64,000 nucleotides of DNA from Fulvivirga ligni (GTDB lineage: Bacteria > Bacteroidota > Bacteroidia > Cytophagales > Cyclobacteriaceae), in assembly GCF_021389935.1 (NCBI RefSeq), contig NZ_CP089979.1, positions 1,469,001 through 1,533,000 on the forward strand, given 5' to 3'. The first letter of the stretch is position 1. Each line of letters opens with the position of its first letter. Under the pieces are notes generated by a model. It was not told the origin of the DNA and made no database searches. It saw only the letters and a list, made by a program, of their open reading frames with translations. Positions 15,569 to 21,911 of this stretch are shown here, one piece after another. The translations under genes were made by a program, and so were the position numbers.

Positions 15569-15576
15569 CACAAAAA

Positions 15577-15606
15577 AAAGCGCCTGTTACCAGAGCGCTT
15601 TCTTTT
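15577..15606 (+). terminator. Strong orphan terminator-like hairpin
   Basis: AAAGCGCCTG (15577-15586) pairs with CAGAGCGCTTT (15591-15601) with one bulged A and a TTAC loop, followed by CTTTT; eight A residues precede it (15572-15579), so it works on either strand. No clear gene ends near it. It could end a transcript from the frameshifted lipoprotein gene about 390 bp upstream, or an unannotated RNA across the repeats. Confidence 0.6.
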
Positions 15607-15966
15607 ACTTAACTAATCAACCTAAACCCTAATCTTAAATATCTTTATATCTGTTTTATCAGATTTTAGCTCTTTTTGAAATCATTTTTCTGAATGATTA
15701 TAGATCAAAGGTATAACATGTTATGGTCTGAAACTTCAGGGGAAATGTGTAATTTACAAGTTAAGGGATACCCCTAGGTTATGTGATAAGCCACTAAGTA
15801 GATCAGCTTAGAAAACTGTAGGAAAATGTATTTCGATCTACAACTTTGAGTAAACTCTTACTCAATAATTCTAGTCCCAGGTGTAGTAATCCTTGAAAAT
15901 CAGCGATAATTGATGATTTGGCATAGTTGTTTCATGTGATCTCATAAATCAAATGAAATAATAACT

Positions 15967-19325: not shown

Positions 19326-19709
19326 AGTTGGTTATTGCAGATTCATTAAAAATAAGGATTTTAATTAAACTGTCTATCTAACGGACGGCTATCTCTTGAT
19401 TTTATTTTATAAAAAATAACAATTGTATTTCATTACCGCATCTATGAAGATGAGCTTCTTCAGCTGGCAACCAGTTTTTTAGACCAAAATCTATAATACG
19501 AATACTATAATTAATTGATCGTTTTAAATAATCGTAAATGGCCTACCCGTCAATTGAGTCCCGATTTTGGAAAGTAATTCCTAATTCTGCTTTTAAATTT
19601 CTGTTCATATGTAAGAAAACGCTCAAAAATGTCGTTTTTAGATTGGCACAGTGTTAGGTTAATACCATGCAGTATTTAACTGACACAACTATTTATATTT
19701 AATTAAATT
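19326..19709. other. Divergent intergenic region upstream of USP and rhodanese genes
   Basis: This 384-bp region has no coding frame with credible composition. A sigma-54-like element for the rhodanese gene is described at 19643-19658. I see no terminator and no TAnnTTTG element; the minus-strand promoter for the stress protein is not identified. Confidence 0.4.
19643..19658 (+). promoter_or_regulatory. Sigma-54-like -24/-12 element upstream of rhodanese gene
   Basis: TTGGCAC (19643-19649), a 5-bp spacer and TAGG (19655-19658). The GG at 19645-19646 and G at 19657 keep the sigma-54 distance of 12, but the -12 block departs from TTGC. The predicted start is near 19670, 40 bp before the ATG. 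It is a weaker match than the two sRNA elements, but identical to them in the -24 block. Confidence 0.4.
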
Positions 19710-20066
19710 ATGAAAGCGTATAGAAATTTAAATTCTAAGGAATTTTTGGAGTTGTTTAATACGACTCCTGATGCAGTGTTGTTGGATGTAAGAACGGAGA
19801 AAGAATTTAAAGCAGAATCATTCGCTGAGGCCTCAAATATTCCTTGTACTGAAACCGATAAGCTTTTGGCTCTAAATAAGGACAAAGCTTATTTTATTCA
19901 TTGCAGGATGGGAGGAAGAAGTGCTATGGTGGCGTTCACTATGTCTCAAGCTGGTTTTCAAAATCTTTACAATCTAAACGAAGAGTTTAGTAAGCTTAAA
20001 ACTGAAGCGAAAGGTTATAGTCTGTCTGCCGGAAAAGTTTCCGAAAACGAGACCAAAATTATGTAA
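19710..20066 (+). CDS. Rhodanese-domain protein (single domain)
   Basis: A 118-residue cytoplasmic single-domain rhodanese that would move sulfane sulfur to an acceptor. Seen: AVLLDVRTEKEF (about residues 22-33, the conserved DVR block) and the active-site loop HCRMGGRSA with catalytic Cys65. The loop has the six-residue form typical of sulfurtransferases rather than the longer Cdc25-like form. The last 20 residues are a polar tail. No signal peptide is present. It is monocistronic, with a sigma-54-like element upstream at 19643, and is followed by two small RNA candidates behind similar elements. The shared promoter type suggests a common condition, such as sulfur or nitrogen status, but this is inference. 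Confidence 0.9.
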   Translation: MKAYRNLNSKEFLELFNTTPDAVLLDVRTEKEFKAESFAEASNIPCTETDKLLALNKDKAYFIHCRMGGRSAMVAFTMSQAGFQNLYNLNEEFSKLKTEAKGYSLSAGKVSENETKIM

Positions 20067-20104: not shown

Positions 20105-20120
20105 TTGGCACATAGGTTGT
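20105..20120 (+). promoter_or_regulatory. Sigma-54-like promoter of sRNA candidate 1
   Basis: TTGGCAC (20105-20111), 5 bp, TTGT (20117-20120). GG at 20107-20108 and G at 20119 are 12 bp apart as in the sigma-54 consensus TTGGCAC-N5-TTGC. The predicted start is about 20132. Confidence 0.55.
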
Positions 20121-20131
20121 AATAAGGAAGA

Positions 20132-20229
20132 TAGGTTTAGGTTGATTAAAAGGCTGTATGATTTTCGTTTTTAGTTGGTTTTAGTATGTACAGCTAATGG
20201 CCGCCCTCTGGTAAAGGGCGGCTTTTTTT
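20132..20229 (+). ncRNA. Small RNA candidate 1 of a tandem sibling pair
   Basis: A transcript of about 98 nt is predicted from the sigma-54-like start to the terminator. Seen in order: a 5' segment with two AGGTT units (TAGGTTTAGGTTGATT), a stem GCTGTA (20153-20158) with TACAGC (20189-20194) enclosing the conserved loop AGTTGGTTTTAGTA, and a terminator hairpin GCCGCCC/GGGCGGC with seven T. The same elements in the same order recur in candidate 2, 240 bp downstream, although the connecting bases differ; both arms of each stem are kept. No open reading frame of credible length is present. Conserved structure plus terminator supports a trans-acting RNA; a short leader RNA or 3' UTR fragment is less likely. 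Confidence 0.6.
20200..20229 (+). terminator. Terminator of sRNA candidate 1
   Basis: GCCGCCCT with AGGGCGGC (20200-20207 and 20215-20222), 7-nt loop, then TTTTTTT. A very stable Rho-independent signal. Confidence 0.9.
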
Positions 20230-20346
20230 ATGTCTTTATATTATGATTAATTCAATCTTGAGATTCAAAATGAGATCAGATTCTCTTATTGGGATAGATT
20301 CTTTTCTGAAATGTGTCTTTAAACTTGTTTTTGGTACATTCTGCCT

Positions 20347-20362
20347 TTGGCACAAGCCTTGG
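20347..20362 (+). promoter_or_regulatory. Sigma-54-like promoter of sRNA candidate 2
   Basis: TTGGCAC (20347-20353), 5 bp, TTGG (20359-20362); GG to G spacing is 12. The predicted start is about 20374. The -24 block and the two bases before it match candidate 1. Confidence 0.55.
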
Positions 20363-20373
20363 ATATAGTTATA

Positions 20374-20469
20374 TCGTTAGGTTAAGGTTAAAGAAGCTGT
20401 AGTTGTTTTAGTTGGTTTTAGTAATTTACAGCGCTTAAGTCGCCCTTTTGGCTAGGGGCGACTTTTTTT
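20374..20469 (+). ncRNA. Small RNA candidate 2 of a tandem sibling pair
   Basis: A transcript of about 96 nt, parallel in layout to candidate 1: TTAGGTTAAGGTTAAAG at the 5' end, stem GCTGTA (20396-20401) with TACAGC (20427-20432) around the loop TTTTAGTTGGTTTTAGTA, and a terminator hairpin GTCGCCC/GGGGCGAC followed by seven T. The hairpin bases differ from candidate 1 while pairing is preserved, which argues for selection on structure. Its last 50 or so bases (from 20418) lie antisense to the final codons of the SSS symporter gene, so it could also act on that mRNA. The pair resembles the multi-copy sigma-54-dependent sRNAs of gammaproteobacteria (Qrr, GlmY/GlmZ) in logic only; no sequence relationship is claimed. 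Confidence 0.6.
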
Positions 20470-21911
20470 ATGAGCAATAATAACCCGATAAAGGTCAGAG
20501 CTCCATTCACGATCAAAATTTCAAATCCGAATTTATAGCCATTGAACCATGCTTCGGAATTTATATTAATAACATAAGATATTATCGGGCTTAAAAGGCA
20601 TACTATTGGTACTCCTCCATCTTTTAATTTATAGTTTGTAAATAGCCCAAAAGCATAAAGCCCCAACAAAGGTCCGTAGGTATATCCTGCGGCTTTAAAT
20701 ACCAGACTGATTACGGCCTCATTGTTAATTTCATTGAAAATGATAATAACAATGTAGAGCAGTAGCGAGAATGAAACGTGTACAATCAATCTTGTTCTTT
20801 TTTGCTTTTTCTGTACTTCCAGTGTTTCTTCTCTTTGTTTGAAATTTAAAAAGTCTACGCAAAAAGAAGTGGTAAGTGCAGTAAGTGCAGAGTCAGCACT
20901 GCTATATGCGGCAGCAATGATTCCGAGTAAGAACATGGCTCCGGCAAACTGGCTAAAATGATCCAGTGCCAGCATAGGGAATAGATTATCTGTTTTAGCT
21001 GGTATGGCTATGCCATTATTGTTAGCATATAAATACAGAAGAGCCCCCATACAGAGGAAGAGTAAGTTTACAAAAACCAGAATCACAGAGAACCAGAGCA
21101 TGTTCTTTTGAGCCTCTCCAATATTTTTACAAGTGAGATTCTTTTGCATCATATCCTGGTCTAAACCAGTCATTACTATGGCTATGAAGGCACCGGAGAT
21201 AAATTGTTTGAAGAAATTGTTGCCACTTTTCCAATCCCAGAAAAACATTTTAGAATAATCACTCTCTTTAATCGTATTCACCAGTTGACCACCAGATATA
21301 TCCAGATCTTTGGCTACCAAATAAATTACTACTATTACCGCTGTGATCATAAAAAGCGTTTGTAGTGTATCTGTCCATACAATGGTTTTGATGCCACTTC
21401 TAAACGTATAAATCCAGATAAGGGCGATTGTGACTAAGACCGTTACAGAAAAGTCAACACCCAAATCGTTGAAAACAGCAAATTGAAGTACACCGGCTAC
21501 TAAAAAGAGCCTAAAGGCTGCGCCAACCGTTCTTGATAGGAGAAAATAAAAAGCCCCAGTTTTATATGACCAGAAGCCAAAACGCTGATCCAAATACTCA
21601 TAAATGGATGTGAGATTCATACGATAATATAGAGGCATAAGTACTTTGCCAATAAATAAATAGCCGAGTAAGTAGCCAAATACTACCTGCATGTAGCCAA
21701 ACTGGGTGTCAGCTACCCAGCCGGGAATAGAGACGAAAGTTACTCCGGATAAAGAGGCTCCAATCATTCCAAATGCCACCAAATACCAGGGTGACTGGCG
21801 GTTAGCGGTGAAAAAGGTCTTGGAATCTGCATTTCTTCCGGTGAGAAATGAAATAAGAATTAATAAGGCGAAATACGCCGCAATTATCGATAAAACTAGA
21901 TTTGGGCTCAT
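20418..21911 (-). CDS. Sodium:solute symporter (SSS family)
   Basis: A 497-residue inner-membrane symporter with about 13 helices. Seen: FTANRQSPWYLVAFGMIGAS (about residues 34-53, the SSS N-terminal signature region), TLVTIALIWIYTFRSGIKTIVWTDTLQ (split near residue 165-190), QDMMQKNLTCKN and AAYSSADSALTALTTSF. It is of the Bacteroidota-specific subgroup usually annotated only as sodium:solute symporter; the substrate is unknown. The last 17 or so residues (KKVAPSQKGDLSAVNY) are encoded by the complement of the sRNA candidate 2 terminator and stem, so this tail may be a byproduct of overlap rather than a family feature. It is divergent from clpS across 74 bp. Confidence 0.9.
   Translation of the reverse strand: MSPNLVLSIIAAYFALLILISFLTGRNADSKTFFTANRQSPWYLVAFGMIGASLSGVTFVSIPGWVADTQFGYMQVVFGYLLGYLFIGKVLMPLYYRMNLTSIYEYLDQRFGFWSYKTGAFYFLLSRTVGAAFRLFLVAGVLQFAVFNDLGVDFSVTVLVTIALIWIYTFRSGIKTIVWTDTLQTLFMITAVIVVIYLVAKDLDISGGQLVNTIKESDYSKMFFWDWKSGNNFFKQFISGAFIAIVMTGLDQDMMQKNLTCKNIGEAQKNMLWFSVILVFVNLLFLCMGALLYLYANNNGIAIPAKTDNLFPMLALDHFSQFAGAMFLLGIIAAAYSSADSALTALTTSFCVDFLNFKQREETLEVQKKQKRTRLIVHVSFSLLLYIVIIIFNEINNEAVISLVFKAAGYTYGPLLGLYAFGLFTNYKLKDGGVPIVCLLSPIISYVININSEAWFNGYKFGFEILIVNGALTFIGLLLLIKKVAPSQKGDLSAVNY
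20439..20469 (+). terminator. Terminator of sRNA candidate 2
   Basis: GTCGCCC (20439-20445) pairs with GGGCGAC (20456-20462), with a 10-nt loop, then TTTTTTT. Confidence 0.9.

Follow-up and report, generated by a model that had tools for sequence, protein, structure and literature searches.

The window analysed is a stretch of 64,000 nucleotides from the Fulvivirga ligni genome, which is a single contig of 6.52 Mb; the genus Fulvivirga belongs to Cytophagales. Downstream of a rhodanese-like gene, the window carries two homologous units, here called U1 and U2, which lie in tandem and contain the same elements in the same order. This layout had been proposed by a sequence-only reading of the region, and a check of the sequence located every element at the position claimed. 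The features of the region are as follows.

15572-15629, minus strand: putative short sibling RNA with seed GGGTTTAGGTTGATT and terminator, no sigma-54 box (covariance model, E 1.8e-4)
19710-20066, plus strand: rhodanese-like gene, upstream of U1
20031-20052, plus strand: enhancer-like site of U1, with GGAA at -75, TTTCC at -68 and GAGA at -57 from the T of TGGCA
20105-20119, plus strand: sigma-54-like -24/-12 element of U1, TTGGCAC-N5-TTG (sequence; strict match)
20132-20229, plus strand: putative sRNA U1, start predicted from promoter spacing (genome BLAST, covariance model)
20133-20147, plus strand: seed S1 of U1, AGGTTTAGGTTGATT, at the predicted 5' end (complement enriched before ATG)
20153-20194, plus strand: U1 hairpin GCTGTA (20153)/TACAGC (20189) with loop core GTTGGTT (covariation)
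20200-20229, plus strand: predicted intrinsic terminator of U1, GC hairpin and seven T ending at 20229 (sequence, folding, covariation)
20271-20294, plus strand: enhancer-like site of U2, with GAGA, TTCTC at -67 and GGGA at -57
20347-20361, plus strand: sigma-54-like -24/-12 element of U2, TTGGCAC at 20347 followed by N5-TTG (strict match)
20374-20469, plus strand: putative sRNA U2, start predicted from promoter spacing (covariance model)
20379-20389, plus strand: seed region of U2, AGGTTAAGGTT (sequence)
20396-20432, plus strand: U2 hairpin GCTGTA (20396)/TACAGC (20427) with AGTTGGTTTTAGTA loop (sequence, folding)
20438-20469, plus strand: predicted intrinsic terminator of U2, GC hairpin and seven T ending at 20469 (sequence, folding)
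20418-21911, minus strand: sodium:solute symporter gene, downstream

The RNA starts were predicted by setting the T of TGGCA as -26, which gives 20132 for U1 and 20374 for U2, the same values that had been suggested earlier. The U1 seed AGGUUUAGGUUGAUU begins at nucleotide 2 of the predicted RNA, and the U2 seed lies five nucleotides after the start, four bases farther from the -12 box than that of U1. Inside the GCTGTA/TACAGC stems, AGTTGGTTTTAGTA is found at 20173 in U1 and at 20410 in U2. The loop core GTTGGTT of the U1 hairpin is a candidate second seed; the complement of this loop is AAAACCAAC. Single-sequence folding energies of U1 and U2 are only mildly low (z -1.90 and -1.78), with stronger relative folding on the reverse strands (z -4.7 and -4.0); the structure of the units therefore rests on covariation. 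The 3' part of U2 (20418-20469) overlaps the end of the convergent symporter gene, and U2 would thus be antisense to the 3' end of this gene over about 50 nt. The symporter gene adjoins a unit in at least 13 of 15 Fulvivirga genomes (G418 has no model match). Before the rhodanese gene, at 19643-19658, there is TTGGCAC-N5-TAGG followed by TTAATA, whose -24 is sigma-54-like and whose -12 is poor; it might be the remnant of a unit or of a promoter.

BLAST of the genome with the U1/U2 pair led to three further places (E 2e-21, 2e-9 and 4e-6), where five more units were read. The genome therefore has seven sigma-54-type units, six with the strict box and the seventh with ATG in place of TTG. One extra unit adjoins asnS, whose far side is occupied by rpoN; the other four are short and form a tandem array flanked by an RtcB-like gene and one resembling CoA-disulfide reductase. 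Of these four genes, rpoN and asnS score above their NCBIfam cut-offs and the other two below. Seven copies of the exact 15-nt seed exist in the genome. Three further seed-plus-terminator units, one of them the short sibling at 15572-15629 in the window, have no sigma-54 box and share the upstream sequence AAAGAT.TTTAAGA.TA. In all, U1 and U2 are two of about ten related putative RNAs, seven of which have sigma-54-like boxes.

A covariance model was built from ten units with the promoter left out. The search for homologous units that the sequence-only reading had proposed returned relatives in 14 of the 15 Fulvivirga genomes (E 0.1), the number of matches per genome ranging from 1 to 11; in many of these genomes the units are repeated and close together. 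U1 and U2 score 98.7 and 80.4 bits, values that are not independent since both are among the model's own sequences. From 28 locus sources we aligned 67 matches, which gave 52 distinct rows. Pairing is kept in 98.9% of the alignment cells and 10 of 13 pairs change on both sides; cells with double changes number 60, versus 14.1 in shuffles, and none of 500 shuffles was as high, although the alignment was fitted to the covariance model, which favours this result. The pairs covary across the genus. The motif GTTGGTT is present in 45 of the 52 distinct matches. Fulvivirga species are related and therefore not independent in these counts.

In the window, the strict promoter pattern TGGCA[CT]-N5-TTG has two matches on both strands together, at 20106 and 20348, which are those of U1 and U2; a looser sigma-54 pattern has 20. 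Across the genus, the strict promoter was found no more than 60 nt upstream of 44 of the 52 distinct model matches, mostly 24-28 nt from the model start, with a chance expectation of about 0.0008 per upstream window. This count takes in all 10 model units, in whose initial discovery the promoter had been considered, and 34 of the 42 matches not used in the model. Five of the eight distinct matches without a strict box have a near match by eye. The rpoN gene is present in the genome. Farther upstream, the motif GGRA-N5..7-TYYC-N4..7-GRRA occurs in 17 of 43 non-redundant regions (shuffle mean 0.17, maximum 2). The motif had been picked out by reading the very sequences used for the count; where it lies played no role in picking it. 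Measured from the T of TGGCA, 14 of the 17 matches start between -75 and -79. The regular expression misses U1 and U2, which have a similar triple at like spacing; that of U1 overlaps the end of the rhodanese gene. The motif is a candidate enhancer-like site for a sigma-54 activator. A motif-free palindrome count upstream of the units gave nothing clear, and among the neighbourhoods listed a regular expression detected no activator gene near the arrays. The promoter frequency, the repeated units and the upstream motif at a fixed distance support the proposal of sibling sRNAs behind sigma-54-like promoters.

Relatives beyond the genus were sought in 291 genomes of the order. The promoter followed by GGTTTAGG is present in seven of them, comprising two Fulvivirga genomes (5 and 6 matches) and five others with one each, two of which are from one genus and alike in sequence; the third Fulvivirga genome of this sample has an altered seed and lies outside these matches. 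The covariance model matched 10 of the 291 genomes at E 0.01, seven of them from other genera. In none of these seven does a strict or loose sigma-54 box lie in the 80 nt upstream, and GGTT-AGGTT is absent; GTTGGTT is found in one of them (L061), and the strongest match (G279, E 7.9e-6) carries AAGGTTGAT with a terminator. The seven were counted as chance or terminator matches, an assignment that falls short of proof. Exact seeds in three genomes of the family (G019, G067 and G059) were set aside, being by eye without sRNA context; the exact seed in G076, also of the family, is followed by a hairpin and T-run and has no sigma-54 box. Two genomes of one other genus of the order (L222 and L223) share TGGCAC-N5-TTG followed by GGTTTAGGTCAAGGTTAATT with no clear terminator, possibly an independent sigma-54 element.

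A scan of contigs with the promoter plus GGTTNAGGTTNA gave 74 stretches: 4 in Fulvivirga, 10 in Olivibacter, 7 in Parapedobacter, 1 in bacterium A37T11 and 52 others. The last were read as a list and most look like matches inside genes, with L094 and L113 unit-like. These two, from Bacteroidota MAGs, have a sigma-54 box plus GGTTTAGGTTAAT and a common GCAGCAGT.TTCCGCC segment and are possibly RNAs of this type from another lineage. In 17 of the 21 Sphingobacteriales and MAG units, a T-rich run follows a hairpin with a folding energy of -8 kcal/mol or lower; across the 21, the gap from TTG to seed is 12-14, although 10-21 was allowed. The Fulvivirga upstream motif is present in one of the 21. 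The sequence-only reading had looked for homologous pairs beyond one lineage and held that their absence would speak against it. Paired long units were found in Fulvivirga only, an absence that counts against the reading only when the genus as a whole is taken to be a single lineage. Olivibacter and Parapedobacter have short relatives, which are single units and lie a few kb apart at best.

Possible targets were approached through AACCTAAACC, the complement of the seed, which was counted 1-15 nt before ATG with the reversed pattern as control. In the 15 Fulvivirga genomes it occurs 216 times versus 105 for the control, and in 43 genomes of other genera 164 versus 396 (Fisher 4e-28; per-Mb Mann-Whitney 4e-7). 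Within the genus, grouping by the fetched seeds, made after the counts were known, gives 195 versus 66 for 11 genomes and 21 versus 39 for the four with an altered or no unit (G421, G414, G418 and G036). The 11 consist of the GGTTTAGGTT genomes (G000, G107, G416, G412, G411, G417 and G420; 131 versus 36, a few sites in G411 and G412 being probably antisense to units), those with only GGTTAGGTT in the fetched units (G413, G415 and G422; 54 versus 25) and G419 (10 versus 5). In the GGTTAGGTT genomes AACCTAAACC is the enriched word (17 versus 12, 18 versus 5 and 19 versus 8, respectively); the word exactly complementary to their seeds, CAACCTAACC, shows no enrichment in two of these genomes (4 versus 5 and 2 versus 3), reaches 9 versus 0 in G415 and is not generally enriched before ATG. 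Tests of whether seed and target change together were mixed or negative within the genus. Duplex energies were mixed as well and are not taken as proof; for two out of three altered-seed leaders they gave own-type pairs no advantage. The word CAACCAAAA is common before ATG in all 58 genomes; per Mb, G414, G418 and G036, with an altered or no unit, are the highest of the 15, and several other genera are equally high. Ten Olivibacter, Parapedobacter and A37T11 genomes show no enrichment of AACCTAAACC (46 versus 54). In G150, from another family of the order, AACCTAAACC is enriched before ATG (13 versus 3) and no unit was found.

All 23 sites in the F. ligni genome were read. At 19 of them the gene that follows encodes, as judged by eye, a protein whose N-terminus is of the secreted or lipoprotein type, and at 17 it encodes a hydrolase, carbohydrate-binding or receptor domain, one of which (GH59) is below its cut-off. 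The secreted peptidases are M4, M57 (three), BSP and reprolysin-like; the secreted glycosidases and lyases are GH9, GH11, GH12, GH64, GH76 (two), the weak GH59 and PL14. The other candidate targets of secreted type are two CBM6 proteins, a SusC-like receptor, a secreted unknown and a lipoprotein. Of the remaining four sites, one falls within the first codons of a LytTR response regulator gene, one belongs to an unknown of 103 aa and two are chance-like. Fifteen of the 23 sites are near an ATG, 12 of these at 7-9 nt before it, and five lie 152-305 nt before the start codon. For M57 leaders (30 loci of 56 matches, two with undetermined start counted as no), the exact AACCTAAACC is present in 18 of 26 from the 11 genomes and in 1 of 4 from G418 and G036 (p 0.13). 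For two M57 leaders without AACCTAAACC, duplex energies that ignore internal structure predict pairing to the hairpin region of a unit from G422, and this pairing takes in the start codon. The conserved hairpin segment concerned is UUUUUAGUUGGUUUUA, for which leaders of the type CUAAAACCAACAAAAAUGAAA are possible pairing partners.

In gammaproteobacteria, sigma-54 and an enhancer-binding protein control sets of sibling sRNAs (Qrr, GlmY/GlmZ), families that are in Rfam. The Fulvivirga units resemble them as siblings under apparent sigma-54-like control; they belong to another phylum and have no Rfam match to them. An Rfam scan of the window gave no match, and the units themselves have none at the gathering threshold; 18 loci gave only a SAM riboswitch and a weak tRNA. 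A loose scan of 1 kb produced nine sub-threshold matches, none to FopS, a family that the library used may lack and with which the units were otherwise compared by description. Bacteroides thetaiotaomicron has the sRNAs FopS and GibS, with 14 paralogous FopS whose genes have canonical sigma-ABfr promoters, as far as the available text describes them (PMC11697453, PMC7366714). According to the accessible part of that work, FopS are paralogous sRNAs with a single-stranded 5' seed, a terminator and pairing at the translation starts of SusC and glycosidase mRNAs, a plan that the putative RNAs described here resemble; FopS differ in their sigma-ABfr housekeeping promoters, whereas 7 of about 10 units in the F. 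ligni genome have sigma-54-like boxes (PMC11697453).

In Flavobacterium psychrophilum, the available portion of one study lists the putative regulatory RNA Rfp36 under a sigma-54 motif and reports that the sRNA Rfp18 is needed for normal mRNA levels of two secreted metalloproteases; that portion mentions no multicopy family, and the likeness to the Fulvivirga units is by description only (PMC9723704). A 2025 comparison of sigma-54 regulons does not contain 'sRNA', 'small RNA' or 'non-coding' in its main text (PMC12316311), and the available text of a 2026 preprint on the Bacteroides regulatory RNA SnoA has no sigma54 or RpoN (PMC13370916). No paper on the present sRNA family was found in a search that lay outside most subscription journals. 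The suggestion that such a system was not yet described agrees with that search for the family and has to be narrowed for the promoter, as a sigma-54 motif before a putative Bacteroidota regulatory RNA is in print, judging from the accessible text (Rfp36, PMC9723704).

The family, the promoter motif, the upstream motif, the covariation, the enrichment of the complement and its link to secreted enzymes are computed results. The front end of the putative RNAs matches the start region of many mRNAs for secreted enzymes that digest sugars and proteins, and the RNAs may therefore control these mRNAs jointly. We consider it probable, at roughly two chances in three, that U1 and U2 belong to a multicopy family of sigma-54-driven, trans-acting sRNAs that repress secreted hydrolases in the manner of FopS.

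Pairing could also activate, if the leaders were stabilised or opened by binding close to the 5' end of the mRNA. The five sites at 152-305 nt before ATG, where blocking of initiation does not follow, would suit this, and deletion of Rfp18 lowers the mRNA of the two F. psychrophilum metalloproteases, according to the available text (PMC9723704). However, 12 of the 15 near sites lie 7-9 nt before ATG, and FopS pairing at translation starts represses, in the part of that report available (PMC11697453); activation is the less expected sign, a one-in-several prospect. Somewhat less probable still is that AACCTAAACC is a leader feature of the genus for another reason, for instance because a protein binds it or because enzyme families inherit their leaders, and that the RNAs have other targets or none. 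G150, the GGTTAGGTT genomes, the frequency of CAACCAAAA before ATG in all 58 genomes and the lack of enrichment in Sphingobacteriales with the same seed agree with such an origin. Yet AACCTAAACC is the exact complement of the most constant 5' segment of the RNAs in the F. ligni genome, it is found before unrelated enzyme families, and other genera show no enrichment.

CsrB is a protein-titrating RNA, and the units might act likewise, the repeated AGGUU and GUUGGUU binding an RNA-binding protein that many copies would soak up. The GGUU motifs are indeed repeated in the 5' end and the loop, the copies are many, and the loose match between seed variants and leader words within the genus would suit a protein reading a motif better than strict pairing. 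By itself, however, titration predicts neither the complement before ATG in Fulvivirga only nor the link of this complement to secreted enzymes, and we regard it as improbable, about as much so as an unrelated leader feature.

For repression by pairing, the mechanism that we infer, including transcription, pairing, its effect and the signal, would run as follows. A sigma-54 activator bound about 100 bp upstream of the start would turn on the sigma-54-type copies under some condition. Each RNA would begin no more than about five nucleotides from its AGGUU-rich seed, the GUUGGUU hairpin would be present in many, and all would end at an intrinsic terminator. The seed would bind AACCUAAACC, which mostly lies 7-9 nt ahead of the start codon, in the transcripts of secreted peptidases, secreted glycosidases and a SusC-like receptor, and translation would be blocked. 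Several copies would give dosage, and the three siblings with the same seed and no sigma-54 box may link the same targets to another signal. More tentatively, and rather against the odds, the family may form a regulon with two seeds, the 5' seed acting on AACCUAAACC and the hairpin-region UUUUUAGUUGGUUUUA on leaders like CUAAAACCAACAAAAAUGAAA, start codon included, as in the two M57 leaders. One sigma-54 signal would then make several RNAs silence the secreted digestive enzymes as a set through both seeds, with the siblings under other promoters as a second input; we doubt this wider scheme to the same degree.

The analysis provides predicted RNA ends, a seed, an operator and a target list for a possible post-transcriptional switch of secreted hydrolases in environmental Bacteroidota. 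If the proposal is true, it would unite the enhancer-controlled sibling sRNAs of gammaproteobacteria with the multicopy sRNAs that restrain polysaccharide degradation in Bacteroides, and the signal that tells degraders to stop enzyme production would become testable.
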